A stretch of DNA of 64,000 nt, from assembly GCF_028705895.1 (NCBI RefSeq), contig NZ_JAQWCQ010000004.1, forward strand, positions 1 to 64,000, given 5' to 3'. Position 1 is the stretch's first letter; each line of letters opens with the position of its first letter. This DNA is from Massilibacteroides sp. (GTDB lineage Bacteria > Bacteroidota > Bacteroidia > Bacteroidales > Tannerellaceae). Below the pieces are notes generated by a model, which did no database searches, had not been told where the DNA came from, and saw only the letters and a program-made list of their open reading frames with translations. This document shows, piece by piece, positions 19,876 through 63,912 of this stretch. Both the position numbers and the translations under genes were made by a program.

Positions 19876-19902
19876 ATCACACTCAGTTTGATTTTAAGAA
19901 TG

Positions 19903-19910
19903 CAAAGATA
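19903..19910 (-). promoter_or_regulatory. -7 box upstream of glnS
   Basis: TATCTTTG on the minus strand fits TAnnTTTG and lies 28 nt upstream of the GlnRS start. No clear TTTG partner was seen at the expected upstream distance. Confidence 0.55.
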
Positions 19911-20109
19911 GTGAATTTTTAGAACAGCAGTATAATTCAGGAGATTGATCTATCAAAACCCTTCCTTCAATACGTTATTCAGTCTCTAACGCAATATATT
20001 CTATTTTTAACTCATTGCATAAATCCGAATAAGCAACAAAGGAACCATCTTAAAAAAGAGTGAAATAGATCGATCACTTTTTCAATCTGGAACAACAACG
20101 TTACAAACG

Positions 20110-20138
20110 AAAGGCGAAACCGAAAGGGAGTAGCCTTT
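20110..20138 (-). terminator. Possible terminator hairpin after the aspartyl protease gene
   Basis: AAAGGC (20110-20115) and GCCTTT (20133-20138) can pair around an 17-nt loop, about 30 nt downstream of the protease stop on the minus strand. The following minus-strand sequence is only weakly T-rich, so the call is tentative. Confidence 0.35.
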
Positions 20139-20168
20139 CTTTTCAGATTTTTAATCGGTCAGTAGTGG

Positions 20169-21389: not shown

Positions 21390-21394
21390 TTTTT

Positions 21395-22669
21395 TTATTT
21401 AAAGGTAACAATTATTAAATAGGGATTATCATCTTCGGATAATTGCTTAAGAAAGCTCTTCAGTTGTTCCCCTTCAGGAGTTGGATTTACGGATATAAAA
21501 TCTAACATCTTTTGTTTCTCTTCCATTAGCGTTTCCGAAGATAGTATAGCAATTGCTTTATTCCCATTCTGATATTGAGGGTTAAATTTCAAACCTGAAA
21601 CCATATCATCAATGAAATAATCCATATTTTTAGCACCGGTTCTGTTTGCAACTGCATCTTTATGGTATGTTCGATAATACCGTGACTTGATTTTGTCATA
21701 AACCATAAAAAAATTTCCGGAATTGTTTCCCATTCGAAAAACAATATAATTATCAGATTCAAAAATCCCAGAATTAGGACGCATTATATAAGTCATAATT
21801 CCAAATTTATCTCCCGTTTCTTTTTTGAAATAATCGTCCTGATTTAACTTAAACTCACCGGTCAGCCGATATCTCGGTACTATTGAGTCATGTTTTATAT
21901 GATATAGGGTATCAGATGCATATTCCAGAAAATAAAGATTGCCCTTATGCCGCCAAACCCGACTCATGTCAGCCCCCAGCATCTTCGTTTTCTTTTTTAT
22001 AGGATATATATTACTCCGATAGCTATTGATAATTTTGCCTTTGCTATCCATGAATCTAATAGAAGCGCAATCAGGTTTATTCCTTTGTCCTATAGTTTGA
22101 CGTAAAGCGATCAAATTTTCATCAATAAGATCTATGCAGCTATTAGGCGGAAGCGGTATCGTTTTATAAAAATCACCATCAATGTGAAATATGACAACCC
22201 GATTTCTCCCCAAATCAGTTGCATAGATTAGAGATTTCTCTTCGTCAATTTGTAATGGATAAGAAATATTAACATATTCTTTTGGCCCCATACCTCTATT
22301 CCCAATTTGTCTTATAAAATCCCCTGTTTTATCGTATTGATAGATAAACGACAGACCGGATAATAATATGCGGTCATTACAAAAAGCAATGTCACAAACC
22401 TGAAAGTCGTTGATTAAGGGCTCCAGGGGTAAAGGGATAAATTCAACCGAATGTGCAAAAGATGACAGGTTATTGTCATAATTTTTGCAAGAAGAATAAA
22501 CAGCTAATTCATATAGCTTTTCTTTTGTAGCTATTTTACTCTCTTTCTCGGTTAAACCCGATTCTGCTTCCCCTTCAAATTCTGAAACAGAAAGGTCTCC
22601 CTTTTTACTTGCTGTACAAGAAAAAAATAGAACTGCAATAAACAAAAAAACAGATCGATTATGTTTCAT
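21395..22669 (-). CDS. 6-bladed beta-propeller lipoprotein
   Basis: A 424-residue lipoprotein (signal peptide ending LFFSCTASKKG, lipid Cys at about 18). The mature part is a 6-bladed propeller: YDKTGDFIRQIGNRGMGPKEY is the family hallmark blade end, followed by YPLQIDEEKSLIYATDLGRNRVVIFH. The C-terminus reads SEDDNPYLIIVTFK, and the same EDDNP ending occurs in the other two propeller proteins of this cluster. The family is very abundant in Bacteroidales, of unknown ligand, at the cell surface or in the periplasm. A fragment of a DUF3244 gene lies immediately upstream. Confidence 0.85.
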   Translation of the reverse strand: MKHNRSVFLFIAVLFFSCTASKKGDLSVSEFEGEAESGLTEKESKIATKEKLYELAVYSSCKNYDNNLSSFAHSVEFIPLPLEPLINDFQVCDIAFCNDRILLSGLSFIYQYDKTGDFIRQIGNRGMGPKEYVNISYPLQIDEEKSLIYATDLGRNRVVIFHIDGDFYKTIPLPPNSCIDLIDENLIALRQTIGQRNKPDCASIRFMDSKGKIINSYRSNIYPIKKKTKMLGADMSRVWRHKGNLYFLEYASDTLYHIKHDSIVPRYRLTGEFKLNQDDYFKKETGDKFGIMTYIMRPNSGIFESDNYIVFRMGNNSGNFFMVYDKIKSRYYRTYHKDAVANRTGAKNMDYFIDDMVSGLKFNPQYQNGNKAIAILSSETLMEEKQKMLDFISVNPTPEGEQLKSFLKQLSEDDNPYLIIVTFK

Positions 22670-22680
22670 AATAAATAAGG

Positions 22681-22839
22681 TTAAAGAGATGTGCTAATAT
22701 AATCCAAGACTGTCTCATTAAATGATAATTCTACAGACGGAGTAGAAATTGTGGAACGAACTATGATAGGGCTAAGTTCTCCTTCCATCGGAATGGGCTT
22801 CTGATCTGCAAATAGGTTTGTTGCAAAGGCCTGAGACCT
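22681..22839 (-). pseudogene. DUF3244 protein remnant, N-terminal part
   Basis: On the minus strand, from about 22839 to the TAA at 22683-22681, the open frame reads AFATNLFADQKPIPMEG, then ELSPIIVRSTISTPSVELSF and NETVLDYISTSL. This is the start of the mature region of DUF3244 proteins (small secreted Bacteroides proteins with a PIPMEG...RS...P pattern). There is no start codon or signal peptide in frame (a TAA lies just upstream), and the frame ends about a third of the way into the domain. A matching later piece of the same family lies at 26323-26421. Confidence 0.55.
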
Positions 22840-22856
22840 TAATTAGTTTAATCATA

Positions 22857-23999
22857 TCACTTCATTGTTACAACACAAAGAACGGGATTATCATCTTCTT
22901 TGAGGTTTGGAAATCGTTTTCTAAATTGACTTTCAGACGCCTCTAATATCACATCCGCAGGAATAGGAATTATAATCTGTCCATCAGATAAGGCATACAT
23001 TTTGTGAGGTCTCCATTTGAAGTCATCATCAAAAATAATTTTATCAAACAATTGATATGCTCCTGTCTTTTTGTCTATCCAGGCATATCCTGATAATTTC
23101 CTGGTTCCTCCTTCATAATAGACTAAAAGATGTGTATCCGTTTCGCTGAAGAACAGGATATGACCTATATACCCTTTTTCTTCGTATTCATCATCAAATT
23201 GGTATACATCTAAATCTGTTCTCTCCCAAAAACCCTCCGGAGGAGTACGGCCATCCACATCAAAAGTGTATCTCAAAATAGCACTATCCGGCGTTAATTC
23301 AAAGATACTGGTGTTTTTCTTTTCATGAAACAGCATTTTTTCGTTATAACGTACATGATAATCCCAACCGTAATGTTCAGATCTTGATTTTACATTAGGC
23401 CAGTAGCCGTTGACGGGCTGTAATGATTTCCGGTTAAAAATATAAAATTTATAAAATGATTCATCCGGATATGATTTTACGATAAACAGACTGTCATCAT
23501 AACAAAAAGAATCATTAACCCTCAAACTGTCAGTAGAATACGAATTTAAAAATTTATCTTCAGAAGAATAAGACATAAGTTTTCTACCATACAGAGTGGC
23601 TAACAAGAGTTCTCCATCAGGCCATATATCATAACTGCTAATACCCGTAAAATTCTAAGGAGAATCTCCTTTATGGTCAATGGTTCGAAGCCATTTCCCC
23701 TCAGAATTGAAAATTGTTATTTTTTTATAATCAGCAATATAAAAACAGTCTTTATGCATTCGGACCCGTTTTATATCATTAATTCCCGGCAATAATACTG
23801 AGTCCGATGTTTCAAGAGGGATGTACGCAACTTCCTTAAAAATATCACTGACAAGCGGACTTTCCTTCTCTATAAGATCAATCTTATAGGTAATAGGGAA
23901 TATTTTTTCTTCTTGCTTCTTTTCGTTTTTCTGATTAACACAAGCCATCAAAAAGCTGCATAGCAGGATAAAAATGAGTTTAGATAGGTGATCGTTCAT
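22857..23999 (-). pseudogene. 6-bladed beta-propeller lipoprotein gene broken by an amber stop
   Basis: Two pieces in the same frame make one gene. The upstream piece (23999-23655) has a lipoprotein signal (FLMACVNQ), an IFKEVAYIPLETSDS segment and NSEGKWLRTIDHKGDSP, then a TAG at 23657-23655. The frame continues without loss through NFTGISSYDIWPDGELLL and on to the C-terminal EDDNPVLCVVTMK. The full length would be 380 residues, normal for the family. TAG replaces a position where GAG or a similar codon is likely, so a single substitution explains the break. The downstream part has an internal ATG (23606) but no signal peptide, so restart would not give a secreted protein. Confidence 0.8.
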
Positions 24000-24066
24000 A
24001 TAGAAAATGTTTTTTATTGAAAGAAAAGAGTAATATAAATTATATAGATCAAAAATATTACTCTTT

Positions 24067-24411
24067 TCAACTATGATTTAACCGCCCCCAGATATAATAA
24101 ACACGGGCTTTTACGTGATTATCACCTTTATCTAAAAAATACTCCGCGGCCACCCGTATCACCGAATCGGTAGTAAACGTATAGTAGTTTTTGTCCTGCG
24201 CTTCGGTAAGCAACAGACAATATGCCGCGTAATCGGCACGACTCATTTTTTCGGGTGAAGGGATGGATTCAAGTAATATCAGGGCGCTATCCGGATGGGA
24301 AAGCATCAGTTGTTCTGCCCGGGTAAATTCTTCTATGGTGGTATGTTGATTGCAGGAGAAAAGAAAGCCTGACAATAGTATTAGAGTATATCGATTGAGT
24401 GTTCTTTTCAT
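24067..24411 (-). pseudogene. N-terminal fragment of a TPR lipoprotein regulator
   Basis: A 114-residue frame with a lipoprotein signal (LILLSGFLFSCNQ, Cys20) and the family-typical HPDSALILLESIPSPEKMSRADYAAYCLLLTEAQDKN stretch. It then runs into a stop after VYYIWGRLNHS. Full-length relatives in Bacteroidales are several hundred residues long, with TPR repeats, a transmembrane segment and a C-terminal regulatory part, so this is truncated after the first repeat. Its start region lies in the 135-nt direct repeat that occurs again at 26421-26555. A C-terminal part of the same kind of protein is at 45920-46663, but the two are not demonstrably one gene. Confidence 0.65.
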
Positions 24412-24501
24412 CGAATTCGTTATTCATTGATTCTCAAATGCAAGATAGCATTTTATTGTGACTCCGTTTGCTCTTTATCAATAAAATTCAAAAACTTTTT
24501 C
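24367..24501. repeat. 135-nt direct repeat, copy 1
   Basis: Matches 26421-26555 in the same orientation with only three substitutions and no gaps. It contains the upstream region and the first 15 codons (MKRTLNRYTLILLSG) of the truncated TPR gene. Confidence 0.93.
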
Positions 24502-24550
24502 ATACTTTAAATTTTAAAAAGTTAGACAATCAAATATTTTATCAAAAACA

Positions 24551-24951
24551 TTATTTGCGAAAAATATGACAATAACTTTTTTCCACTACCCAAACCTGAT
24601 AAATAATTTGGGGATCATAGCATATGTTTTGTTTTATATCAATCATCATTTTTATTAACGATATATTCATTAATGGCTCCCCCCATAAAAACTGATAACA
24701 AGAGGTGAATTTATATCTGACACATAATTATCTTTCCACAAATTCACCAAATAATCTATCATTAATACAGCTTTTTCAAATAATAAATCACGAGATTTTC
24801 TCACATCGTATTTCTCATATAAATGGTCTGATAATCCACAATACTTGCAATTTAGATTACTTTTTTCAGTAACTTCAAAAACAAGATTTTTAAGGTTAAT
24901 AAGGTTGTTCCTAATTATTTTTTCGTCAATTGAGTTAATAGTTTTTATCAT
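24551..24951 (-). pseudogene. Radical-SAM peptide maturase, N-terminal remnant with frameshift
   Basis: The frame starts at 24951, 7 nt after the propeller stop codon. Residues 23-40 read LVFEVTEKSNLNCKYCGL, the radical-SAM cluster-binding site, but the first Cys of CxxxCxxC is Ser31; only Cys35 and Cys38 remain. The frame then reads SPLVISFYGG and stops after SH at 24670. One extra G in the G6 run (24684-24679) would restore the hallmark GGEPLMN and keep the frame open to 24551. So the gene has lost a cluster cysteine, shifted frame and lost its C-terminus. It was probably a SPASM-type peptide-modifying enzyme; substrate unknown. Confidence 0.7.
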
Positions 24952-24957
24952 ACATTA

Positions 24958-26100
24958 TTATTTGAATTTAATAATTCTTACAACCGGATTGTCATCTTCT
25001 TTAAGTGCCCTTAATGCTTTTAATGGATCACTTTTTTCATTCGCTTTTTTTATTAGCGAGGGTTGTATCAGTTCGGCAAACTTGTTTTTCCCTATTGCAG
25101 GGGATGAGTTTGGTCCCCATTTTCCTCTAAATGATTCTGCATCTATAAATGTTACTTTATTGATTTCTCCAGTTTTAAAATCATATATATAGTATGGAAT
25201 CTTTCCACTTTTTAAATTAAAATCTAAAAGAATCGTACCAAGGAGGATAAATTTATCTGTTGTTAAAAAGGTTGCCCATATATTCCTGGGTTCGGATGTA
25301 TGAACCGATGGCTTACGGGTTAATATAGGGGTAATTTTCTTGTCCTGAGTTAGCATACACAAAGTGTCTGATGAAATATCTGCAAGCATAAAATCCTGAC
25401 CGTAATATATGCTGGAGGGATAACTCATTATAATACCTCTTTCATTTTTTCCTTCTTTTTTAAGAATACGGGATGAATACCTTTTAGACAAATGAATATC
25501 CAAAACGGAAATCAGACTTCCATCTTTTTTTGATATGAGACGGTAGGGCTCTTTTTTCGTCTTATGTTCAAGTCCTGTATCTATTATTACGTTGTCATAT
25601 ATAAGTAGTGCTTCATCATCGAAATTGTAAACCGTTGATTCATTTTGCAGAGTATTAATTTTCAACGTTCGTTTGTATTCTCCTATCAGCGAATAAACCT
25701 GAATGGACTGATTGTAGACAAATATTTCCTTCTTTTTATCATCAAAAACCAAACCTCTGATCCATGCGTATTCCTGACCGCTATTCCCCTTGTGATTGAA
25801 ATGAGCAAGTGTTTTTCCCGTGTGATTAAAAATAAATATATCTCCCCGTATAGGTTCATAGATTATAATATATTTGTCGGAAACAGCGGAAAGTACAGCG
25901 TTTTCACTTAAAAGAACATCGTCGGTCGTTTCTAATGGAATATATTTTGTATCAGCAATGTCTTGAAGACGTATTTCCTTTTTGGGATAGTTTTTTGAAA
26001 AGTCAAGAATTGGCAAGTCTCCTGTACTTGACTGGGAATATATTACCTGACTATCTATTACAAAAAAAGATATCAGTAAAATAAAATAATTGATCTTCAT
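24958..26100 (-). CDS. 6-bladed beta-propeller protein
   Basis: A 380-residue protein with a signal peptide (cleavage near residue 22, no lipobox Cys) and the family pattern: LQDIADTKYIPLETTDDVLLSEN, then FNHTGKTLAHFNHKGNSGQEYAWIRG and VYNQSIQVYSLIGEYKRTL. The C-terminus is LKEDDNPVVRIIKFK. It is the intact member closest to the radical-SAM remnant, which starts 7 nt downstream. Such propellers often accompany radical-SAM peptide systems in Bacteroidales, which may be their origin here; that link is inferred. Function unknown. Confidence 0.85.
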   Translation of the reverse strand: MKINYFILLISFFVIDSQVIYSQSSTGDLPILDFSKNYPKKEIRLQDIADTKYIPLETTDDVLLSENAVLSAVSDKYIIIYEPIRGDIFIFNHTGKTLAHFNHKGNSGQEYAWIRGLVFDDKKKEIFVYNQSIQVYSLIGEYKRTLKINTLQNESTVYNFDDEALLIYDNVIIDTGLEHKTKKEPYRLISKKDGSLISVLDIHLSKRYSSRILKKEGKNERGIIMSYPSSIYYGQDFMLADISSDTLCMLTQDKKITPILTRKPSVHTSEPRNIWATFLTTDKFILLGTILLDFNLKSGKIPYYIYDFKTGEINKVTFIDAESFRGKWGPNSSPAIGKNKFAELIQPSLIKKANEKSDPLKALRALKEDDNPVVRIIKFK

Positions 26101-26322
26101 AATTTTTTATTTAATCAATAATAAGAAAAAGACTATCTCAGAATGAACGATAACACTTATTTATCATCGTAGACTTTACTTATCATTTATGTAAGATATC
26201 ATAGATGATGCAAGTCTATTATGCTATTTTGAGAAAATACCAATAAACGAATTATTTAACAAACCCAATTTTAATGTAGCGTCTGATGATGAACAACTCA
26301 ACCTATTTCGAGATGTATAATC

Positions 26323-26421
26323 TTATGGAATAATCTCTGACTGCGGATCAACATATATTTCATCAATAATAGTATTGTTGTTTTCATCAATAATCAACAC
26401 TGTTAGAGATGAAAAAGACCG
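26323..26421 (-). pseudogene. DUF3244 protein remnant, central/C-terminal part
   Basis: The minus-strand frame reads RSFSSLTVLIIDENNNTIID and then EIYVDPQSEIIP before TAA at 26325-26323. The sequence fits the second half of a DUF3244 domain and would follow plausibly on the N-terminal remnant at 22681-22839. It begins exactly at the left edge of the 135-nt repeat, so it is joined to the start of a TPR gene in another frame. This is a recombination scar rather than a gene. Confidence 0.45.
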
Positions 26422-26555
26422 CCTGACAATAGTATTAGAGTATATCGATTGAGTGTTCTTTTCATCGAATTCGTTATTCATTGATTCTCAAATGCAAGAT
26501 AGCATTTTATTGTGACTCCATTTGCTTTTTATCAATAAATTTCAAAAACTTTTTC
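26421..26555. repeat. 135-nt direct repeat, copy 2
   Basis: Copy of 24367-24501 (three substitutions). It holds an ATG at 26465 that opens the same MKRTLNRYTLILLSG start as the truncated TPR gene, but after the repeat edge the frame reads GLFHL and stops (26403). This is therefore a second, dead TPR gene start. Confidence 0.93.
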
Positions 26556-27043
26556 TGTTTGGAGTGCGGGATAATGTATCATAAATATGGGCATGGGATT
26601 GTTCTATTTTCAGATTTTATTTTGACAAATAGTTATTTTATTTGCCTTTTTGCTTACACGTAAAAATCGCTTATCTTCTTTTTTTATATCTTTAGTGTTG
26701 TTTTAAACCAAAAAATATTGGATAAAGACCAAAAAAGCCCATTTTTTGCGGTCAACTAAAAGGTTATTTTTTGAAAAATATCCTTTATTTTCAAAAATTG
26801 AATAGTATCTTTTTTTTTATGGATACTATTGATTTTTTTCATTGGCTTTTTTCGTCTAATTTCGGCAATCCGGAAAAATAGACATGCTGTGTCACGTGTT
26901 TTAAGCCTGGTTTTTTAGTGTTTGTTTTTGGGGTATGTATTTTGTCATTCCAGTTAAGAAAACGCTCCGGAATAGCTCTGTTGAGGTTGGTGTTAATTTG
27001 TTTGGAAATAGTGGGATTTGCTATTATTTTGTTTTTTTTATTT
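26556..27043. other. Gene-free interval downstream of the kinase gene
   Basis: A very AT-rich interval with no convincing frame; the frames that can be drawn are shadows or low-complexity. It contains a perfect inverted repeat AATAGTATC (26801-26809) and GATACTATT (26822-26830), described separately, and weak A/T hairpins around 26728-26755. Confidence 0.5.
26801..26830. promoter_or_regulatory. Inverted repeat similar to the one upstream of the efflux operon
   Basis: AATAGTATC and GATACTATT are perfect 9-nt inverted arms around a 12-nt T-rich spacer. The arms differ by one base per arm from AATAGTGTC/GACACTATT at 56462-56488. It may be a binding site for a dimeric regulator, or a weak terminator (T-rich sequence follows on the plus strand). 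No sigma-54 promoter was found nearby. Confidence 0.4.
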
Positions 27044-28360
27044 TCAGGGGAATGTGAGCGTGAAACAGGTAATGCCTGACTGAATATCCGACTTGACAAC
27101 AATACTTCCGCCTGATAAACGCATGATTTGACGGGATACGGAAAGGCCGATACCGTTCCCTTTTTCTTTTGTAGAGAAGAACGGAACAAAAATATGCTCC
27201 ATTACATCTGTCGGGATAGCCGGCCCGTTATTCATAATCTCTATGATAACGGCTTCTTCTTTGTTTGTGTAGGCTTTGATGATGATTAATCCGTCTTCTT
27301 GTTTTGTGCCGATTGCTTCTAATCCGTTTTTCAGAAGATTGAGTACCACCTGACTAACCAGATTTTCGTCAGCGTAAACAATCAAGTCTTCTTGCGGGAT
27401 CTCGATCTCTATTTTTATGTTTGAATAGTTTTTCTGATGCAAAGCCAATTGTCGCATACGTTCAGCAAAAGGAGCTACATAGAATAGGGTCGGGGTGGGG
27501 GTTGGTAAATGTGTGAATTTTCTGTAGGACTCAACGAAAGACATCAGGCTTTTCCCCGTTGAATTGATCACTTGTAATCCATCTCTAATTTCAGGACAAG
27601 CTTCCCCTTGTGTGGAAAGAAGAGTTTCGCTTAATGAAGTAATCGGGGTGATCGAGTTCATTATCTCATGTGTTAATACGCGGGTCAGACGCATCCATGA
27701 GTCGATCTCTTTTTCATCCAGTTCTTTGTTGATGTCATTGATCGCAATAATACGCATATTCACGGATTGCAGTTCTATGCCCGATACCTGAATTAGTAAA
27801 TTCATTGTGCCCCGTTCATTCGAGAAACTAATCTGTTCTTTTGCTCCGGGATGGATTTTAGAAATAACTTCTTCCAATGAGGGGTCAATCCGGGATAGCT
27901 GTTTTACGTGAGTGAAAACAGACATTCCAAGAAGTTTCATAGCCTCCCTGTTTGTCTGAAAAACATATCCGTTTTCATCGATAACAATAATGCCTGTATT
28001 AACGGAGTTAATAATCAACTCATAGTATTTCTCTTTTTGAATTACTTCTGCTTTAGCCTGAAATAAAATTTTATTGATCCGGTTCAATGAGTTGTTGACC
28101 ATTTCGTCCGGATAGGATATACCCTGTTCTGCAAAGTTAAATGCTTGATCTCCATTGTCTATGGCGTCAAACATAAACGCTACTTTCTGGGCATTGCGTT
28201 TATAAAGTTTTAGGATTAAGAGAAAGATAAGAATCCAGAAGAAAACAGTAACACCTAAGAATACCCATTCTTTCTGAATGGCCAGATATGTACTCACAAT
28301 TGATAATAACGTGAGAGTAATCAGACTGATGGATAATCTTTTCTGTAATAGATCTAACAT
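27044..28360 (-). CDS. NtrY-like sensor histidine kinase
   Basis: A 438-residue membrane kinase. Two transmembrane segments (about 9-28 and 33-52) leave almost no periplasmic loop, so it probably senses a membrane or cytoplasmic signal. A PAS domain follows (YYELIINSVNTGIIVIDENGYVFQTNREAMKLLG, about 112-145). The phospho-acceptor is His231 in LTHEIMNSITPI, and the ATPase boxes are YADENLVSQVVLNLLKNGLEAI, then MNNGPAI and STKEKGNGIGLSVSRQIM. It lies 9 nt downstream of the NtrC-type regulator gene and forms a two-component pair with it. Confidence 0.93.
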   Translation of the reverse strand: MLDLLQKRLSISLITLTLLSIVSTYLAIQKEWVFLGVTVFFWILIFLLILKLYKRNAQKVAFMFDAIDNGDQAFNFAEQGISYPDEMVNNSLNRINKILFQAKAEVIQKEKYYELIINSVNTGIIVIDENGYVFQTNREAMKLLGMSVFTHVKQLSRIDPSLEEVISKIHPGAKEQISFSNERGTMNLLIQVSGIELQSVNMRIIAINDINKELDEKEIDSWMRLTRVLTHEIMNSITPITSLSETLLSTQGEACPEIRDGLQVINSTGKSLMSFVESYRKFTHLPTPTPTLFYVAPFAERMRQLALHQKNYSNIKIEIEIPQEDLIVYADENLVSQVVLNLLKNGLEAIGTKQEDGLIIIKAYTNKEEAVIIEIMNNGPAIPTDVMEHIFVPFFSTKEKGNGIGLSVSRQIMRLSGGSIVVKSDIQSGITCFTLTFP

Positions 28361-28369
28361 TTTGCTCTC

Positions 28370-29716
28370 TTAAAGTTCGTATCTCTTTATTTTATTGTAA
28401 AGCGTTTGCCGTGAAATACCTAACTGTTGGGCAACTAATGACATATTCCCGTCGAACTTATCAATGGATTCTTTGATCATTTTATACTCCATCTCTTCTA
28501 ATGTCGTTATTTCTTTTTCTACTTTGCCCTTTCCCTTATTCAGGTCAATAGCAACACGATCTAATTCTCTCCCATCATTAATAATGACTGCTTTCTCGAT
28601 CGCATGTTCCAACTCACGGATATTTCCGTACCATGGATGTTGTTTTAGACTTTCCTTTGCTTCGTTGGTGAATTGCATTTCCTGCTTTCCGTAGATTGTG
28701 CAATATTGGGATAAGAACACTTCAGCCAATCGGATAATATCCTCCGGACGTTCCCTTAGCGAAGGTATGCGAACATGGATAGTGTTAATACGGTACAATA
28801 AATCCTCCCGAAAATGATTCGCGACAACCATCTCTTCCAAATCCCGGTTTGTTGCACAAATCAGTCGGATGTCCACGGGGACAGGTTTGTTGCTACCCAC
28901 CCGTACAACACTGCGACTCTGAAGCACGGTCAGCAGCTTCGCCTGCAGGTGGTAAGGGAGATTCCCTATTTCATCCAAGAATAAGGTTCCTTCGTTTGCT
29001 GCTTCAAACTTGCCCGGTCGATCCGTATTTGCGTCCGTAAACGCCCCTTTTACGTGACCGAACAATTCACTTTCAAATAAGCTCTCCGTAATAGCTCCCA
29101 TATCGACAGGAATCATGACCTTCCTGTTTCTCTTAGATAAAGCATGTATTTCACGTGCAAGCATTTCTTTTCCGGTTCCATTCTCACCTGTTATCAGGAT
29201 ATTGGCGTCTGTAATTGCGACCTTCTCTATCAGCGCTTTTAATTGCAACATCACTTTGCTTTCTCCCCAGATCATTCCGGAGGAAGCTGCAATATGAGCA
29301 CTGTCCTTGTTTTTTTTCTCTTTTCGATTATCCTCTAAAGCAGCCGCCTTCAACAGGGTTTGTACTAACTTGTCATTATCCCAGGGTTTAACCACAAAAT
29401 CGGCAGCTCCTTCTTTGATACCCTTTACCGCCAGATCAATGTCGGCATAAGCCGTAAAAAGAACAACCGGTAATGCCGGTTTTAGTTTTTTTACTTCCGA
29501 CAACCAGAATAAGCCCTCATTCCCATTATTAACCCCAGCCTTGAAGTTCATATCCAATAAAACCACATCCGGAGTTTCTTTCCGCAATACGGCTTTAATC
29601 TGTTCAGGAGAAGAAATCACAATTGTTTTTTTAAAGACAGACTCCAACAACATTTTCATGGCCGTCAGGATCGCTTTATTATCATCAACTACAAGTATAG
29701 TACCTCGTTTAGACAT
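28370..29716 (-). CDS. NtrC-family sigma-54-dependent response regulator
   Basis: A 448-residue regulator with three parts. The receiver domain has ILVVDDNK and phosphorylation site Asp55 in VVLLDMNF. The AAA+ domain has Walker A GENGTGKE (about 177-184), DEIGNLPYHLQAKLL and the sigma-54 contact loop GAFTDA at 224-229, the usual Bacteroidetes variant of GAFTGA. The C-terminal Fis-type HTH is MSLVAQQLGISRQTLYNKIKRY. It should activate RNA polymerase-sigma54 promoters after phosphorylation by the neighbouring kinase. The frame opens earlier (29755) but the ATG at 29716 gives MSKRGTILVVDD. A candidate target is the operon at 56575 onward. Confidence 0.95.
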   Translation of the reverse strand: MSKRGTILVVDDNKAILTAMKMLLESVFKKTIVISSPEQIKAVLRKETPDVVLLDMNFKAGVNNGNEGLFWLSEVKKLKPALPVVLFTAYADIDLAVKGIKEGAADFVVKPWDNDKLVQTLLKAAALEDNRKEKKNKDSAHIAASSGMIWGESKVMLQLKALIEKVAITDANILITGENGTGKEMLAREIHALSKRNRKVMIPVDMGAITESLFESELFGHVKGAFTDANTDRPGKFEAANEGTLFLDEIGNLPYHLQAKLLTVLQSRSVVRVGSNKPVPVDIRLICATNRDLEEMVVANHFREDLLYRINTIHVRIPSLRERPEDIIRLAEVFLSQYCTIYGKQEMQFTNEAKESLKQHPWYGNIRELEHAIEKAVIINDGRELDRVAIDLNKGKGKVEKEITTLEEMEYKMIKESIDKFDGNMSLVAQQLGISRQTLYNKIKRYEL

Positions 29717-29742
29717 CGTTTTATCTCTATTTCTTGAATGCC

Positions 29743-29750
29743 CAAAGATA
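29743..29750 (-). promoter_or_regulatory. -7 box of the two-component operon
   Basis: TATCTTTG on the minus strand matches TAnnTTTG and lies 27 nt upstream of the response-regulator start. Confidence 0.5.
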
Positions 29751-29824
29751 GTCAAAAGATATTTTTTAGAGTTGTTTAAAAAGACTGTAAATCACATTTA
29801 TAGCAAATCAGCTTGATGACGAAC

Positions 29825-56289: not shown

Positions 56290-56427
56290 CCCCAAAAAAG
56301 GTCAGCATTCTAATCTGGATTAAAGGTCACCCCAGAGGCATTTTTTGCAAAGAGTATAGTCTTTGAAGAAAAAGAGTATAGTCTTTCCCTCCAAAGACTC
56401 TACTCTTGTCTTTGGTGAGTGCTTTAG
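56290..56427 (+). repeat. Dispersed 138-nt repeat, copy B
   Basis: The inverted counterpart of 1082-1219. The landmarks are CCCCAAAAAAGGTCAG, TCTGGATTAAAG, GAGGCATTTTTTGCAAAGAG, two AGAGTATAGTCTTT units, CCCTCCAAAGAC and GGTGAGTGCTTTAG. It fills most of the interval between the thioesterase gene and the efflux operon. Confidence 0.75.
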
Positions 56428-56461
56428 TCTTCTTGATATGATCGTTGTCAAAAAACTATAC

Positions 56462-56488
56462 AATAGTGTCAAAAAAATGGACACTATT
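56462..56488. promoter_or_regulatory. Inverted repeat upstream of the efflux operon (candidate enhancer)
   Basis: AATAGTGTC (56462-56470) and GACACTATT (56480-56488) are perfect inverted arms, with C/G outside pairing as well, around the 9-nt spacer AAAAAAATG. The centre is about 90 nt upstream of the start predicted from the sigma-54-like element, a usual place for an NtrC-type activator site. Nearly the same arms occur at 26801-26830 beside the NtrY/NtrC operon. Confidence 0.5.
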
Positions 56489-56538
56489 GAAATTTTGCTG
56501 TTTTGTTAATTATTTGATTTATAGATGCTTTGTCGTTT

Positions 56539-56554
56539 TGGCACGGGCTTTGGA
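56539..56554 (+). promoter_or_regulatory. Sigma-54-like -24/-12 promoter of the efflux operon
   Basis: TGGCAC (56539-56544), 5 nt, then TTGG compares with the sigma-54 consensus TGGCAC-N5-TTGC. The GG (56540-56541) and the second element (56552-56553) are exactly 10 nt apart as required, but the second reads GG where GC is usual. A start near 56565 would give only about 10 nt of leader, which is a weakness of this call. Confidence 0.5.
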
Positions 56555-56574
56555 TTAAATAAGGAGTAAGGCAA

Positions 56575-57918
56575 ATGGATATGAAAAAGAAAATATATAT
56601 AGTAATGGTTTTGGTGGGCTTAAGAAGTCTTTCTTTTGCTCAGGAAAAAGTCTGGACGCTGGATGAGTGTATGAAATATGCGGTGGAGAATAGTACGAAA
56701 GTAAAGAAAGCGCTTCATACGAATGATACGTATAAGGCGGAACAACTTTCGGCTTTCGGTTCTTTTCTTCCTTCATTGACTGCAAATGTCGGGGCGCAAT
56801 TAAACTATGGTCGTTCCATTGATCCGGAGACAAATACATATAGTAACACTTCAACCTTTAATAACGGTTATTCTATCTCTTCTTCTCTTCCCATATTTTA
56901 TGGTGGTCGTCTTATTAATCAGTGGAAATTATCCAAAGTAAATCGTTTGCTGGGGAAACAGACTGTACGTCAGACGGAAGATGAATTAGCAATCAATACG
57001 ATGCAGGCGTATATTGATGTGGTGTTTTATCAGGGAACGGCGAAATTGGCCGCTGAAAAATTAGAAGAAAGTTCACGATTACTCTATAAAACGAAACGCC
57101 AGGAAGAACTTGGATTGAAAGGTAAAGCCGATGTTGCGCAGATCGAAGCGCAGGTTGCTTCGGATGATTATGACCTTACGCATCAGGAAAACATGTATAA
57201 TACGGCATTGCTAACGCTGAAAGAATATATGAATTATGATGCAGGTCTTTCATTGGAACTGGATACGACTCTTACCACTCAGGAATATACATTTCAACCT
57301 GAATCAACCGATGCTATTTTTGCTTATGCTTCAGAGAATAATCCTTTGGCGCAACAGGCGGCACTTACTTTAAAGAATAATAAGTTGCAGCATCTTATAG
57401 CGAAAGGGCGTTTGTTTCCAACGATTTCTTTGTCGGCAGGTGTCTCAACTAATTACTTTGAGAATCTATCTTCCGGAGCAGCCGATCCGGCAGCTTTCAA
57501 GTCGCAGTTCAAAAATAACCGTGGGGAATATATTAGTTTGAATATCAGTATCCCGCTATTTGATGGTTTTGAGAATCGAACTACTATACGTCGCGCCCGT
57601 AATAACATGCGGATTGCTGCCGAACAACAAACGGAAACTTTACGTCAGCTGCAAATTACGATCGAAAAAGCAGTTGCTGATCGTGATGGCTATCTGAAAG
57701 AAATGATCCAGATGGAGAAGCAAGTCAATGCAAACCAATTGGCGTATCAGTTGACCTTGAGAAAATTCGAAGAAGGACTGATGAGCTCGCTTGATTTGCA
57801 GACAAGTGCGAATCAACTGATTCAATCCAAAGTAAACCTCTTACAAAGACGCTTGCTGTACATTGTCAAAGTACGACAGGTCGATTATTATAAAGGGGGT
57901 GAATTAGTACAGAAATAA
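56575..57918 (+). CDS. TolC-family outer-membrane efflux protein
   Basis: A 447-residue protein with a signal peptide (cleavage near residue 22) and the TolC/OEP pattern. It starts VWTLDECMKYAVENSTKVKKA, has a long helical middle with SAFGSFLPSLTANVGAQLNYGRSID, and a repeated second half (LIAKGRLFPTISLSAGVSTNYF, LNISIPLFDGFENRTTIRRARNNM). It forms the outer-membrane channel of a tripartite exporter. An AAGGAG ribosome site lies 8 nt before the ATG at 56575; the ATG at 56581 is an alternative. First gene of the operon with the adaptor 33 nt downstream. Confidence 0.94.
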   Translation: MDMKKKIYIVMVLVGLRSLSFAQEKVWTLDECMKYAVENSTKVKKALHTNDTYKAEQLSAFGSFLPSLTANVGAQLNYGRSIDPETNTYSNTSTFNNGYSISSSLPIFYGGRLINQWKLSKVNRLLGKQTVRQTEDELAINTMQAYIDVVFYQGTAKLAAEKLEESSRLLYKTKRQEELGLKGKADVAQIEAQVASDDYDLTHQENMYNTALLTLKEYMNYDAGLSLELDTTLTTQEYTFQPESTDAIFAYASENNPLAQQAALTLKNNKLQHLIAKGRLFPTISLSAGVSTNYFENLSSGAADPAAFKSQFKNNRGEYISLNISIPLFDGFENRTTIRRARNNMRIAAEQQTETLRQLQITIEKAVADRDGYLKEMIQMEKQVNANQLAYQLTLRKFEEGLMSSLDLQTSANQLIQSKVNLLQRRLLYIVKVRQVDYYKGGELVQK

Positions 57919-57951: not shown

Positions 57952-59202
57952 ATGGATATACAATTAGAAAAAAAGAAAGGTATTCAGAAGAAACACATTC
58001 CTTATGTTGTCGGAGGTGCATTATTCCTGATATTAGTGGGATGGATAATTTTCGGGGATCATTCGTCTACCCTAAAAGTCGATTCCAGAAACGTAAATAT
58101 CGGAGATGTAACGAAATCGGAATTTAATGATTTCGTGCGTGTGGACGGACAGGTACAGCCAATCACTGTTGTACAACTTAGTCCCGAAGAGGGGGGGATT
58201 GTGCAGGAAAAAGTAGTGGAAGAAGGTGCGCAGGTAAAGAAAGGAGACGTGATCGTTCGTCTGAGTAATTCCGGATTGGATTTGCAGATTCTGAACGCGG
58301 AAGCCGACTTAGCTGAAAAGCAAAACTTCCTAAGAAATACACAGGTGACCATGGAACAGGATAAGCTGAATAATAAGACTGAAAAACTGCAATTAGATTT
58401 GGATATTCAGCGTAAGCTGAGGGCTTTTAAACAACAGGAACAATTGTATAAAGAGAGTCTGATTGCTAAGGAAGAATATTTGCAGGCCAAAGAAGATTAT
58501 GATCTCGCCAAACAAAAACATGCGCTTATTATTGAGCGGCTTCGTCAGGATTCTATCTATCGTTCTATACAGATGGATCAGATGGAAGACAACTTATCTA
58601 ATATGCGCCAGAATGTATTACTGATTCGTGAACGTAAGGAACACCTGAACATTCGTTCGCAAATAGATGGTGAGTTAGGTCTGTTGGATGTCGTATTGGG
58701 ACAAAATGTCTCTACCGGACAAAAGATTGGTCAGATCAATGACTTGTCTGATTATAAGATCGAGGCTATGATAGACGAACATTATATTGATCGTGTAAAA
58801 CAAGGTCTGGATGCCGCTTTTGAACGTCAGGATAAGAAATATGCGTTGACTGTACGCAAGGTATTCCCTGAAGTACGTGATGGCAAGTTTCGTACCGAGT
58901 TGGTCTTTGCCGGCGAACGTCCGGATAATATTCGTAGCGGTCAGACCTATTATATCAATTTACAATTGGGGTTACCTACAGAAAGTGTGATTATTCCTCG
59001 CGGAACATTCTTCCAGACTACGGGAGGAAGCTGGATATTTGTTGTTGATAAAGATGGCAAAAAAGCAACTCGTCGTAAAATCAAAATCGGTCGTCAGAAC
59101 CCACAATTCTATGAAGTGCTGGACGGACTTGAACCGGGCGAACGTGTTGTTATCTCTAACTATGAAAATTACAAAGACAATGAGGTGCTGATCCTTCAAT
59201 AA
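57952..59202 (+). CDS. HlyD/MacA-type periplasmic adaptor
   Basis: A 416-residue membrane fusion protein. One transmembrane segment (about 16-34; HIPYVVGGALFLILVGWIIFG) is followed by a split lipoyl/barrel-sandwich domain (VQLSPEEGGIVQEKVVEEGAQVKKGDVIVRLSN and later NIRSQIDGELGLLDVVLGQNV), a coiled-coil hairpin (about 110-225) and C-terminal beta-barrel domains (VIIPRGTFFQTTGGSWIFVVD, EPGERVVISNYENY). It bridges the inner-membrane permease and TolC. It lies between the TolC and permease genes. Confidence 0.94.
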   Translation: MDIQLEKKKGIQKKHIPYVVGGALFLILVGWIIFGDHSSTLKVDSRNVNIGDVTKSEFNDFVRVDGQVQPITVVQLSPEEGGIVQEKVVEEGAQVKKGDVIVRLSNSGLDLQILNAEADLAEKQNFLRNTQVTMEQDKLNNKTEKLQLDLDIQRKLRAFKQQEQLYKESLIAKEEYLQAKEDYDLAKQKHALIIERLRQDSIYRSIQMDQMEDNLSNMRQNVLLIRERKEHLNIRSQIDGELGLLDVVLGQNVSTGQKIGQINDLSDYKIEAMIDEHYIDRVKQGLDAAFERQDKKYALTVRKVFPEVRDGKFRTELVFAGERPDNIRSGQTYYINLQLGLPTESVIIPRGTFFQTTGGSWIFVVDKDGKKATRRKIKIGRQNPQFYEVLDGLEPGERVVISNYENYKDNEVLILQ

Positions 59203-59210
59203 ATTCTAGT

Positions 59211-61541
59211 ATGAATATTTTCAGATTATATAAAAAAACAGGTCTTTTCTTATGGATAAACATTATCGGTTTATCCATAGGGTTGGCTGTTTCTATTTTG
59301 CTTATACTATTTGTTGTTAACGAATTAAGTTATGATAAACATATCGCGAATAATGAACGTATCGTTTGGCTGACTACTCAAATTGAAACGGCCGACAGAT
59401 CGGAGAAATATCCGATAAACCTGCGTAAAGCCTATACCGAATTGCCGGAAAAAGTACCAGCTGTAGAAGCTGCTGTACAACTTTATAATTGGGGAGCTTC
59501 TGAATTTACTAATGGTCAGGAGCGTTATCCCAATATTCAGACGAAATTAGCTGATGCTGATTATTTCGACGTTTTTCAGATGAAATTTTTAGAAGGTACT
59601 CCGCAAACAGCTTTGACAGATCTTCGTTCACTTGTGTTGACAAAAGAAAAGGCAGAAGCAATATTTGGAGATATCCACGAAGCAATGGGTAAGGAGCTAA
59701 GAACAGATCGGGACACTTTTGTTGTTTCCGGAGTTGTTGAAGCCTATCCTTATAATACCTCTTTGAACTTTGAGGCGTTGGGAAATATCAAGCGAATGAA
59801 TTGGATTGATGGTGCGGGGTTGGAGTTCTATACCTATTACTTAGTTAATGAATCAGTTTCTGTTTCTGAAGCAAGAAAAGCTATTGTCGCAGAATATGAA
59901 AAAATACTTGAACCATTCGGAGCACAGTTTGGAGCAGAAATAAACGCTAAAACATTTTTACTTACAGATATTTACCTGAAATCGGATGTGCAAAATTTCT
60001 GGGGCAAGCAAAGCAATATGAAATTTGTTTGGCTACTTACGGTTTTGGCTGTATTTATTTTGATTCTGGCCGTGACGAACTTTATCAATCTGTTTATGGC
60101 ACAGGGAGAAACACGCATGAAAGAGATTGGTGTACGTAAAACCTTAGGTGCGCAGATCCCGAATATTGTGAAACAATTCTTTTCAGAAATAACGGTTGTT
60201 GTAAGTCTTGCTTTTGTTATTGGCTTTTTATTGATGCTTTACCTGATGCCTTATTTCTCAGAATTGGTTAACAGGGAAATAGATTCAAGCCAGCTTCTTA
60301 CTCCATTGTTTATGTTTGGAGGAATCTTACTTTTCCTTTTAACGATTGTGTTGGCGGCTTTCTATCCTTCCTTTTATTTGAGCCGATTTAATCCGTTGGC
60401 TATTCTGAATAAGCAAATCCGTTTTTCAAAACAACGATTAAATGTGGTAGTGGTGGTTTTCCAATCGTTTCTTTCCATTATTTTAATCTCATTTATTCTG
60501 ATCTTTTACCAACAGATAATGTTTCTGCAGAATTTACCATTAGGTTATTCCCCTGAAAATGTAGTGATGGTCTATGGTAATCGGGCGGTTTCCGGAAGTT
60601 ATGCTGCTGTTAAACAGGAGTTATTGGCTAATCCTGATATAATAATGGTAAGTGGAGGATCGCATCAGGTAGGTGGAGGAACAAGTGGACAAGGTATAAA
60701 GCTTTTGGAGTCAGATCCTTCTTCTTTAGCTGTAAATGAATACAGGATGTTGCCGGGATTATGCGAGTTGATGAATTTTCAATTAGCAGAAGGCGAATTT
60801 TATAAGGAAACGACGCACGACAGTATTCCGCAGATCGTGCTTAATGAAGAGGCAATTAAAGCTTTAGGTTTGGAATCGCCGGTTGTCGGACAAGATATTT
60901 ATTATAGAAGAAAGATGAAAATAATCGGTGTGGTAAAGGACTTTTACTATGGCAATCCGGTGAATAAGATCGAACCGATTATGCTTACGCGAGTAGGATA
61001 TCCGTCTTTACTGTATCTGAAAGTAAGGGAAGGCATTAACCGAATGGATGCGGAACAAACAATCGCAAATGTGTTGAAAGAGTTCGATCCGAACTTCACA
61101 CTCAATGCGGTATGGAGTGCCGATTTGTATGCCGATAAATTCAAAGAAATGAAGATCAATGAACGGATCATATTGATAGCCTCTGTTCTCTCTGTTTTTA
61201 TAGCGATGTTGGGGTTGATGGCGATGCATCTTTATTCCACAATACGGCGCACGAAGGAAATCGGGTTGAGGCGTATCAACGGAGCCAGCCGCAGTTCTAT
61301 ATTCAAGTTGCTGTCTATAAATGTAATCAAGTGGGTATTTATTGCCGGCGTTCTGGCTGCACCTGTAACTTATCTGATAGCGCATGATTTATTTAAACAA
61401 TACGATAACGCGATAACGCTGAACTGGGTGATATTTGTTGTTCCTGTTTTGATTCAGGCGATAACCGCTTTACTGACCACTTCAGGAGTAACCTTGCGGG
61501 CATTATCCGTAAATCCGGTAACGATCTTAAAACAAGATTGA
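59211..61541 (+). CDS. MacB/FtsX-type ABC transporter permease 1
   Basis: A 776-residue permease. There is an N-terminal membrane helix (LFLWINIIGLSIGLAVSILLILFVV) and a large MacB-type periplasmic domain, then three membrane helices with the FtsX signature (FINLFMAQGETRMKEIGVRKTLGAQ). A second periplasmic domain follows, and a second FtsX block (LYSTIRRTKEIGLRRINGASRSSIF) before the end. This is a duplicated MacB-like form without an ATPase domain. It resembles mechanotransmission exporters rather than a channel. It starts 9 nt after the adaptor gene, and a second similar permease gene follows after 4 nt. Confidence 0.92.
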   Translation: MNIFRLYKKTGLFLWINIIGLSIGLAVSILLILFVVNELSYDKHIANNERIVWLTTQIETADRSEKYPINLRKAYTELPEKVPAVEAAVQLYNWGASEFTNGQERYPNIQTKLADADYFDVFQMKFLEGTPQTALTDLRSLVLTKEKAEAIFGDIHEAMGKELRTDRDTFVVSGVVEAYPYNTSLNFEALGNIKRMNWIDGAGLEFYTYYLVNESVSVSEARKAIVAEYEKILEPFGAQFGAEINAKTFLLTDIYLKSDVQNFWGKQSNMKFVWLLTVLAVFILILAVTNFINLFMAQGETRMKEIGVRKTLGAQIPNIVKQFFSEITVVVSLAFVIGFLLMLYLMPYFSELVNREIDSSQLLTPLFMFGGILLFLLTIVLAAFYPSFYLSRFNPLAILNKQIRFSKQRLNVVVVVFQSFLSIILISFILIFYQQIMFLQNLPLGYSPENVVMVYGNRAVSGSYAAVKQELLANPDIIMVSGGSHQVGGGTSGQGIKLLESDPSSLAVNEYRMLPGLCELMNFQLAEGEFYKETTHDSIPQIVLNEEAIKALGLESPVVGQDIYYRRKMKIIGVVKDFYYGNPVNKIEPIMLTRVGYPSLLYLKVREGINRMDAEQTIANVLKEFDPNFTLNAVWSADLYADKFKEMKINERIILIASVLSVFIAMLGLMAMHLYSTIRRTKEIGLRRINGASRSSIFKLLSINVIKWVFIAGVLAAPVTYLIAHDLFKQYDNAITLNWVIFVVPVLIQAITALLTTSGVTLRALSVNPVTILKQD

Positions 61542-61545
61542 TAAG

Positions 61546-63912
61546 ATGAATAAAGAATTAGTATTAGCATTTCGCTCCCTGTTTAAGAAAGGACGTAACA
61601 ATCATATCAAGATACTGTCATTAGCCGTAGGCTTGGCGATGGGCTTGGTACTGATCGCTAAAGTCTATTTTGAGCAGACGTTTGATAATTTCTATCCGGA
61701 TGGAGACCGGGTTTATCATCTGACTGAGAATTTTACAAAGGCAGATGATGATGAGCCCGGGTGGCATAACCGTGTTAGCGGTGCCATAGCCGTTGGAATG
61801 CGTGAAGAATTACCGGAAGTAGAAGCCGGAACTCGCTTTACTAATCTTGGATTACAAGATGCGATCTTCTATACAACAGACGATAAACGCAATTATTCCG
61901 GCAATTTTATTCTTGCTGATTCCTGTCTGTTTGATGTGCTTCCGCGTCCTGTTCTCGCCGGTGATGTGAAGCAAACATTGTCTCGTCCGATGTATGTGAT
62001 CGTATCTAAAAGTATTGCCGATAAGATCGGTTCGGATGTGATCGGGAAAACAATAGAAATGGATACGTATCCCGGTAAGATCATGACTATCGGAGCTATC
62101 TTTGACGATATACCCGAAAACTCGCACTATCGTTATGATGTGGCAATTTCTATGTCTTCGATCGGTGAGTTTATGTGGGACGGCTCGATGAATTGGTTGG
62201 GTAATGACCGTTATTCGGCTTATGTCCGTTTATCAAAAGGGGTAACACCTGAGTCTATAGCCGCGTCAATGCATGAAATGCAAACCAGACATCAACCGAT
62301 GGAAAAGTTGAAAAAATTGGGTATGGATATTTATTATACGCTAAATCCCTTGCTAACCATCCATTCCGCAGATCAGAATGTGAAACGTATGTCTCTTTTA
62401 TTAGGATTACTTGCCTTTGCCTTGTTGTTTACTGCAGTAATGAACTATATTCTGATTGTTATTTCCACATTGGTTGGTCGTTCAAAAGAAGTGGCGGTTT
62501 ATAAATGTTATGGTGCTTCGGGTAAAAATATCACATCTCTGATGTTGGCCGAAACCACAGTACATCTTACGATCTCCATAATAACGGCTGTTTTACTTGT
62601 TGCTGCTTGCCAGCCTATTGTAAAAGAATTATTGGGTACATCCTTAATCGCCTTGTTGTCTTGGGAGGCTTGCTTACTGCTGTTGGGTGTATGTGTACTT
62701 GTTTATCTGTTAGCAGGATTAATTCCGGCCCAATTATTTGCACGTATCCCTGTTGCTGTTGCGTTTCGTAATTACCGCGAGTCCCGTCGGAACTGGAAAT
62801 TGGGATTGTTGTTTATCCAGTTTATTGCTTGTGCATTTCTGGTTACTCTGCTTGTGATTATTGGTCGTCAATATACCCTGATGGTCAATGATAATCCCGG
62901 ATATAATTACGAGAACGTGGTTTATTGTGAAACCTTTGGTACTAACAAGGAAAGACGACAACAGGCAATTAATGAATTAAGTCGTATTCCGGGTGTAGAT
63001 ATGGTAGCTACCTCATCGACTTTGCCTTTTCAGGGAATGTCAGGAAATAATGTTTCTCTTCCCGGTAGAGATGAAGAACTGTTCAATTTTGCAGATATGG
63101 AAGATGCGGACATAAATTACTTTAAGTTATTGCAAATCCCCATTATGTCAGGAAAGGCATTCGATGAAAATAGTGCAGAAGGAGATATTGTAGTCAGTAA
63201 ATCCTTTGAAGAAAAGATGGCACTTATGTGTGGTTGGACTGATGGAGCCGTAGGAAAAGAAGTAAGATTGAGTCAATGGGAATTACGCCGTATTGTGGGT
63301 GTATATAATGATATTCGTGTTTCTTCTATAGCCAATATGGACGAGCGTCCGAGTGTATTGCTTTATACTAAAGAACCTCAGAATATTATTACTGTTCGTC
63401 TGCATCAGATGAATTCGGAGTTAATACAGCAGGTAACGTCAGTTTTGGAAAACTCTATGCCGGACAAGCATCTTGTAGTCATACCATACAGTGAAGAGAT
63501 GATAAATCTGTATAAAGACTCCCGCGTATTTCGTGATTCAGTCATGATCGGAGGTATTGTAACACTGCTTATTTCCCTGATCGGATTGGTTGGATATACG
63601 AATGACGAAATAAACCGTCGCAGAGCCGAAATTGCTGTCAGGCGGATAAACGGCGCAACTTTACTGGATATTTTACGTATTTTCTTAATAGATATATTGA
63701 AAATTGCTATACCCGCTATTGTACTGGGAGGTATTGCGGCTTACTTCACTGCAGTAAAATGGCAGGAGCAATTTGCCGAAAAAAGTTCGCTGACTATTTT
63801 CTTGTTTATCGCTTGCGGTTTGGCGGTACTTTCAATCATCTTAACTTTAGTAAGTATCAATGGATATCGGGTAGCCAATCAAAATCCGGTAGAAAGTCTA
63901 AGAAATCAATAA
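61546..63912 (+). CDS. MacB/FtsX-type ABC transporter permease 2
   Basis: A 788-residue paralogue of permease 1 with the same order: N-terminal helix (ILSLAVGLAMGLVLIAKVYFE), a periplasmic domain, a helix block with the FtsX motif (ILIVISTLVGRSKEVAVYKCYGASG), more helices, a second periplasmic domain, and the C-terminal block (EINRRRAEIAVRRINGATLLDIL). No Walker motifs are present. It probably forms a heteromeric pair with a neighbouring permease; the ATPase must come from elsewhere, possibly beyond the right edge. Confidence 0.92.
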   Translation: MNKELVLAFRSLFKKGRNNHIKILSLAVGLAMGLVLIAKVYFEQTFDNFYPDGDRVYHLTENFTKADDDEPGWHNRVSGAIAVGMREELPEVEAGTRFTNLGLQDAIFYTTDDKRNYSGNFILADSCLFDVLPRPVLAGDVKQTLSRPMYVIVSKSIADKIGSDVIGKTIEMDTYPGKIMTIGAIFDDIPENSHYRYDVAISMSSIGEFMWDGSMNWLGNDRYSAYVRLSKGVTPESIAASMHEMQTRHQPMEKLKKLGMDIYYTLNPLLTIHSADQNVKRMSLLLGLLAFALLFTAVMNYILIVISTLVGRSKEVAVYKCYGASGKNITSLMLAETTVHLTISIITAVLLVAACQPIVKELLGTSLIALLSWEACLLLLGVCVLVYLLAGLIPAQLFARIPVAVAFRNYRESRRNWKLGLLFIQFIACAFLVTLLVIIGRQYTLMVNDNPGYNYENVVYCETFGTNKERRQQAINELSRIPGVDMVATSSTLPFQGMSGNNVSLPGRDEELFNFADMEDADINYFKLLQIPIMSGKAFDENSAEGDIVVSKSFEEKMALMCGWTDGAVGKEVRLSQWELRRIVGVYNDIRVSSIANMDERPSVLLYTKEPQNIITVRLHQMNSELIQQVTSVLENSMPDKHLVVIPYSEEMINLYKDSRVFRDSVMIGGIVTLLISLIGLVGYTNDEINRRRAEIAVRRINGATLLDILRIFLIDILKIAIPAIVLGGIAAYFTAVKWQEQFAEKSSLTIFLFIACGLAVLSIILTLVSINGYRVANQNPVESLRNQ

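Follow-up and report, generated by a model that had tools for sequence, protein, structure and literature searches.

A likely sigma-54 enhancer and promoter with paired operators upstream of a TolC–HlyD–permease operon in Massilibacteroides

Background

Enhancer-dependent sigma-54 promoters of the NtrC/NtrB type, such as that of glnA in enteric bacteria, are activated through paired dyad operators that lie about 80–150 bp upstream and in phase. The locus described here lies in the first 64,000 nucleotides of contig NZ_JAQWCQ010000004.1 of Massilibacteroides sp. (the window). It resembles NtrC/NtrB systems in its receiver–AAA+–Fis-type activator, its paired upstream operators, its -24/-12 element and a possible IHF-type site between them, and differs from them in its operator sequence, in its target (a TolC/MacB-like exporter, not nitrogen genes), in the GAFTDA loop of the activator and in a G at -12.

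Bce-type modules use an OmpR-type regulator. In these modules (BceRSAB, Firmicutes), a kinase lacking an extracytoplasmic sensor domain is tied to an FtsX-type ABC transporter, according to the accessible parts of two articles (PMC3023708, PMC10314905). The window system shares with them a short-loop, two-helix kinase without a sensor domain and a genetically tied FtsX-type transporter, whereas its activator is of the NtrC type, proposed to act with sigma-54, and not of the OmpR type, and an envelope-spanning TolC/HlyD part is present. It is not a member of the Bce group and is at most an analogue.

Within Bacteroidia, promoter matrices have been used to predict sigma-54 control of FtsX-like ABC permeases (COG0577), which was termed first evidence (PMC12316311, PLoS One 2025, accessible part). 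That prediction shares its type of target and its sigma factor with the present system; as far as the accessible text of the article goes, no operator or regulator is named for the permeases and the activator list kept only GAFTGA sequences, so that a GAFTDA regulator family would be left out. This strict filter may be one reason why the survey, in that part of its text, lists no activator at such promoters. The sigma-54 regulon of Flavobacterium psychrophilum, which comprises protein quality control and envelope stress genes (PMC9723704, accessible part), offers mapped -24/-12 promoters in the same phylum, but TolC is absent from its main text and the accessible part describes no operator.

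Paired-operator sigma-54 enhancers are thus a known kind, and for FtsX permeases of this class regulation by sigma-54 has been predicted before. In searches of open-access articles (subscription journals and preprints lying outside this scope), no listed title or opening of an abstract names the present operator or regulator; as far as these searches show, the operator with its fixed geometry, its assignment to the window regulator and its role as a regulon tag are new. We propose, with a probability of roughly 0.87, that positions 56446–56554 are the enhancer and sigma-54 promoter by which the regulator encoded at 28370–29755 switches on the TolC–HlyD–permease operon. The proposal provides a concrete operator and regulator, together with a test set, for the regulation of Bacteroidota exporters by sigma-54; through the switch, expression of the exporter would be coupled to a membrane sensor kinase.

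A -24/-12-like element and paired operators precede the TolC operon

The genes of the putative target operon within the window are as follows.

56575..57918, + strand: TolC-like outer membrane efflux protein (PF02321; second in-frame ATG at 56581)
57952..59202, + strand: HlyD-type adaptor (PF13437)
59211..61541, + strand: MacB/FtsX-type permease 1 (PF02687, PF12704)
61546..63912, + strand: MacB/FtsX-type permease 2

The gene row runs past the window to contig position 71880, with a third permease, an ABC ATPase and two more permeases. Between the third permease and ABC ATPase genes, three tandem near-copies of TTTAGAGGTAGGTGTAAAT lie 22 bp apart at contig position 66272–66334.

Upstream of the TolC gene, the following elements were recognised or predicted.

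56446..56462, + strand: distal operator TGTCAAAAAACTATACA (second-best single score in the window, 16.2)
56467..56483, + strand: proximal operator TGTCAAAAAAATGGACA (top operator score in the window, 23.9; core of the inverted repeat at 56462–56488)
56507..56519, + strand: TAATTATTTGATT, possible DNA-bending site (matches the IHF consensus read on the opposite strand)
56539..56554, + strand: sigma-54-type -24/-12 element TGGCACGGGCTTTGGA (an equivalent element stands at a fixed distance 3' of the operators in relatives)
56565, + strand: predicted transcription start, placed from the -24/-12 spacing 12 nt past the -12 position

A reading of the same DNA from its sequence only (hereafter the sequence-only reading) had proposed a TGGCAC-N5-TTGG promoter and an enhancer here. 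Element and spacing are real: the GG at -24 and the G at -13 are both present with the right 10-nt distance, but the -12 part reads TTTGG, with a G in place of the classical C. This C is kept in 56% of 36 non-redundant family regions, and two congeners have an A. The 36-region alignment was anchored on the best -24/-12 match, so that the conservation of GGCA and of the -13 G is partly by construction while that of the operators is not. The genome contains one PF04552 match above cut-off, a 491-aa rpoN frame with the RpoN box ARRTVAKYR. The promoter at 56539–56554 would depend on sigma-54, and transcription would start near 56565.

The conserved unit consists of two 17-bp operators of the TGTC-N9-GACA type, 21 bp apart and 55 nt 5' of the -24 element. 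The sequence-only reading had drawn one inverted repeat, AATAGTGTC-N9-GACACTATT, which is real at 56462–56488 but is only part of the signal, as the distal operator had been overlooked; its core TGTC-N9-GACA holds, while the arms as drawn run into the spacer and do not. The extended palindrome AATAGTRTC/GAYACTATT was rejected as the operator, being peculiar to this genome, and the conserved part is the core. On an operator profile built from relatives only, the window pair scores 40.1 and the runner-up pair 12.5, and the third-best single score in the window is 14.1 (at 22474). With dyad centres about 90 and 111 bp upstream of the predicted start, the window has the paired, in-phase upstream dyads of NtrC-type activating sequences; in relatives, about 72 nt lie between the starts of the proximal dyad and of the -24 element.

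The IHF-like block (consensus taken from the accessible part of PMC10380432), which is weaker in the alignment than the operators, is exact in 6/36 regions and within one mismatch in 16/36, window included, at the same offset, although this offset was picked from the alignment and the next one (-68) also gives 10/36 near matches, which come from the AT core of the operator. We place moderate confidence in an IHF-type site at 56507–56519, judged from this pattern of matches. Six strong HU/IHF-family matches are present in the genome.

Just 5' of the switch, the direct repeat AAGAGTATAGTCTTT occurs at 56350–56364 and 56372–56386, followed by a near inverted copy at 56393–56407; a third copy lies at 1102.

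The operator pair recurs before exporter genes in relatives

The pair was searched as TGTM-N9-KACA-N4-TGTM-N9-KACA, with the reversed pattern as control. It has one match in its own genome, at the TolC operon. In 121 family genomes, the pattern matches 249 times and the control 15 times, 9 of the latter in one genome. Thirty places (one per genome, window included) were examined, and 28 have homologues of operon genes within 1.5 kb downstream, namely TolC at 13 and the ABC ATPase or permeases 2–5 at 15, with GGCA 53–56 nt past the pair; at the other two (L180, L201), no operon-gene homologue was found within 1.5 kb behind it. Permease and ATPase units of relatives thus occur with copies of the switch of their own, which would then act as a regulon tag and, used in searches, would mark dispersed permease and ATPase genes as one regulon.

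Upstream regions of TolC genes give a similar picture. The 21-bp pair is found in 43 of 59 such regions of relatives, compared with a mean of 0.0 over 200 Markov-shuffled sets. The regions, which are not a random sample, were drawn from those 96 genomes (of 121) in which HlyD has a strong match. For the first 39 regions, which were hand-picked from the upper part of the list with some skipped, the count is 35, and the other 20 were chosen to include distant regulators. Both operators are visible in the alignment of the 36 non-redundant regions (40 with the window, four near-duplicates dropped). In nineteen loci, two of them from Tannerella, the regulator gene and a TolC or HlyD gene point away from each other, and 10 of these loci have a pair scoring 15–16/16, counted as the best of the region at a spacing of 21 or 22 bp and with no shuffled control.

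Four of the 20 added regions (L239, L245, L246 and L247) reach only 8 or 9/12 for their best -24/-12 element, none convincing; kinase and receiver matches belonging to another pair adjoin them, and they contain TGTATGA-type or TGTCTAA/TGTATGA repeats at a spacing of 23 bp. These operons may be paralogous, or their regulator may have been swapped.

In a phylum set of 392 genomes, 18 had a match, two of them within the family, and control matches occurred in 10 genomes. Phylum-wide presence of the exact pair was rejected, as the count outside the family (16/390 genomes) does not stand out clearly from this background; from these counts, the exact 21-bp form looks like a trait of the family. A search of the own genome for a single operator plus TGGCA gave one other place, no more than the 3 and 4 of the controls, and we therefore claim no second target there.

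The regulator and the operon are linked in relatives

The proposed regulator and its kinase are encoded on the opposite strand.

27044..28360, - strand: sensor kinase, two predicted membrane helices about 4 residues apart (topology prediction)
28370..29755, - strand: NtrC-family response regulator with GAFTDA, the proposed activator (PF00072, PF00158 and PF02954 in order)

The regulator combines the receiver, the AAA+ sigma-54 interaction domain and the Fis-type HTH of NtrC-type enhancer-binding proteins. Its loop reads GAFTDA, not GAFTGA, and among 80 relatives AFTDA is found in 68, AFTGA in 3 and AYTDA in 2, with 7 unread. GAFTDA is listed among the variants that would keep activity in the accessible part of PMC4641369. 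Some regulator matches of relatives contain one or two in-frame stops (e.g. G033, G034 and G026).

The helix spacing leaves no room for a periplasmic domain in the kinase. Among 48 long-enough kinase relatives, 32 have two helices, in 31 of which the loop is at most 25 residues, and 16 have one helix or none. As a special mark of this kinase, the short loop loses weight, since the contig-107 paralogue shares this topology.

Synteny supports the assignment of this pair to the operon. In 80 loci around regulator relatives, a kinase relative is present in 77, a TolC homologue in 34 and at least one of TolC, HlyD, permease 1 and permease 2 in 46; other queried window genes reach 0–2/80. Many of these loci end at contig ends, and among the 37 of at least 13 kb, TolC is found in 20 and any of the four in 25. 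TolC is divergent and less than 1 kb from the regulator in 19/80. The neighbourhood spans Tannerella (L010) to Aquimarina, Poritiphilus and Tenacibaculum (L035, L065 and L075). In the window, regulator and operon have become separated and are about 27 kb apart, with Sus-like and glycosidase genes between them.

Regulator and operator also co-occur. With a regulator match at E ≤ 1e-120, both are present in 73 of 121 genomes, the regulator alone in 19, the operator pair alone in 8 and neither in 21 (Fisher 6e-7); with a 61% identity cut, chosen after seeing the data, the same classes number 71/1/10/39 (Fisher 3e-21), both Fisher values ignoring the kinship of the compared genomes and thus overstating independence, and several genomes being incomplete. 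For the 61 genomes at least 90% complete, the 61% cut gives 47/1/1/12. Taking upstream regions as the unit, the pair occurs in 42 of 44 from genomes whose regulator reaches at least 61% identity, in 1 of 10 where it has 55–60% and in 0 of 5 where there is none. In the 55–60% class, TGTAAA-type sites occur in 4 of 8 newly fetched regions and also in G100 (regulator 57%), the sole region of this class with the pair. One congener has a second regulator (56%), which stands next to a permease of its own; TGTAAA-type sites and a -24 element accompany it.

Two earlier proposals, that a sigma-54-type promoter with an upstream enhancer serves the TolC operon and that the NtrC/NtrY-like pair controls it, are supported by the synteny, the footprints and the co-occurrence seen in relatives.

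Proposed mechanism

The elements stand in fixed geometry and recur before the same genes, accompanied by synteny and by regulator–operator co-occurrence. On this basis, the sensor kinase would phosphorylate the regulator, two dimers of which would bind the paired operators on the same helix face, two helical turns apart, and assemble into an AAA+ ring. A bend, perhaps made by an HU/IHF-type protein at 56507–56519, would bring the ring to the sigma-54 polymerase at 56539–56554, and ATP hydrolysis would open the promoter for transcription from near 56565. Binding, bend and signal are predictions in this scheme, and envelope stress, the label given to the regulon in the sequence-only reading, is no more than a plausible guess for a TolC/MacB-like exporter. 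A more speculative extension, which we consider unlikely, is that FtsX-type exporters report their load to the kinase without a sensor domain and that the GAFTDA regulator fires all tagged units, as a sigma-54-based Bacteroidota counterpart of the Bce module; if true, the scattered permease and ATPase genes would form one distributed export and sensing regulon.

Alternative readings of the repeats and of the regulator assignment

The sequence-only reading had joined the promoter to a second, "almost identical" inverted repeat near the kinase gene.

26801..26830, no strand assigned: AATAGTATC-N12-GATACTATT, rejected as an operator of this system

This repeat is present, 214 nt past the end of the kinase gene at 27044, and its arms agree with those of the first in 8/9 bases, but the spacers differ (9 and 12) and TGTC/GACA is changed to TATC/GATA. 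A scan with AATAGTRTC-N8..13-GAYACTATT confirmed that the 3.6-Mb genome contains the pattern only at these two places; the looser ATAGTRTC-N7..14-GAYACTAT gave 0 matches in 122 other family genomes, and a loose form of the pattern has no match in either of two congeners. Of 60 simulated windows, 1 contained two 9-bp repeats with no more than one mismatch in the arms, so that the likeness of the two repeats alone is weak evidence. On the operator profile, where the two operators reach 23.9 and 16.2, no 17-mer within 26801–26830 scores above -0.19, and a 17-mer overlapping the left edge of this stretch, at 26788, scores 7.3. No -24/-12 candidate above 9/12 was found in 26301–27044. Two congeners have only about 75 bp between the kinase gene and the next gene, the counterpart of the window gene at 18175–19875, so that the repeat-bearing stretch is extra DNA in this genome. 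With its low scores, its lack of a promoter and its absence in the two congeners, the repeat was discarded as a matching operator. Positions 19876–27043, about 7 kb with beta-propeller and protease-like genes, look like an insertion relative to the two congeners.

That promoter and repeat belong to one regulon in which the matching site allows self-control has in its favour the 8/9 agreement of the arms and the restriction of the pattern to two places in the genome. The altered core and spacer, the profile scores, the lack of a promoter nearby, the absence in congeners and the simulated frequency all count against it, as does the position of the site downstream of the pair that it would control; we regard self-control by this route as highly improbable. 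The repeat might instead form a stem rich in A and T that is unrelated to the operators and perhaps weakly terminates transcription behind the kinase gene, a reading for which its place beyond the kinase stop, its predicted fold (-8.3 kcal/mol on the kinase strand, -12.8 on the other) and the T runs after the stem can be cited, although a GC-poor stem makes a poor intrinsic terminator and no conservation is seen. We hold this tentatively, at somewhat less than even odds. An explanation of the entire upstream pattern at the TolC operon as a chance product of AT-rich intergenic DNA could appeal to the composition of the region, to its many short repeats and to the 27 perfect 9-bp inverted repeats of the window (overlaps counted), compared with a simulated mean of 5.3. 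It is refuted by the comparative counts (249 against 15, and 43/59 against 0.0) together with the near-fixed distance to the -24 element, which leave it a negligible probability.

The operators and promoter may also be real and be driven by another NtrC-type activator, with the window pair controlling something else. The description of the window regulator as the only sigma-54 activator is correct within the window, but the genome carries four strong ones, and the distance of 27 kb between regulator and operon, as well as the 10 of 121 genomes in which the pair occurs without a regulator of at least 61% identity, leave room for such an arrangement. The activator on contig 107, also with GAFTDA, lies 3' of a TolC-family gene (PF02321) preceded by a strict -24/-12 element, and its pair is the best alternative driver of the window switch, with cross-talk possible. 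Against this, the sequence 5' of the contig-107 promoter is different and lacks the TGTC-N9-GACA pair, whose pattern has a single match in the genome; the activators on contigs 84 and 24 have no exporter gene among the neighbours scanned; the other three activators are only about 38–42% identical to the window regulator; and elsewhere the operon is adjoined by relatives of the window's regulator. Control by another activator thus appears improbable, and the regulator at 28370–29755 is retained as the proposed activator.

The contig-107 locus (L207:6984–9931) contains the -24/-12 element, the TolC-family gene, the second NtrC-type GAFTDA regulator and a kinase, and is likely to be another sigma-54 exporter unit, whose upstream region differs from that of the window operon; control of TolC-family genes by sigma-54 may be a recurring feature of this genome. 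A plasmid search gave no match. On contig 24 (L209:8115–9825), an LptE gene comes directly after a third gene for a sigma-54 activator, and the same regulator–LptE order is reported for Flavobacterium psychrophilum in the accessible part of PMC9723704.
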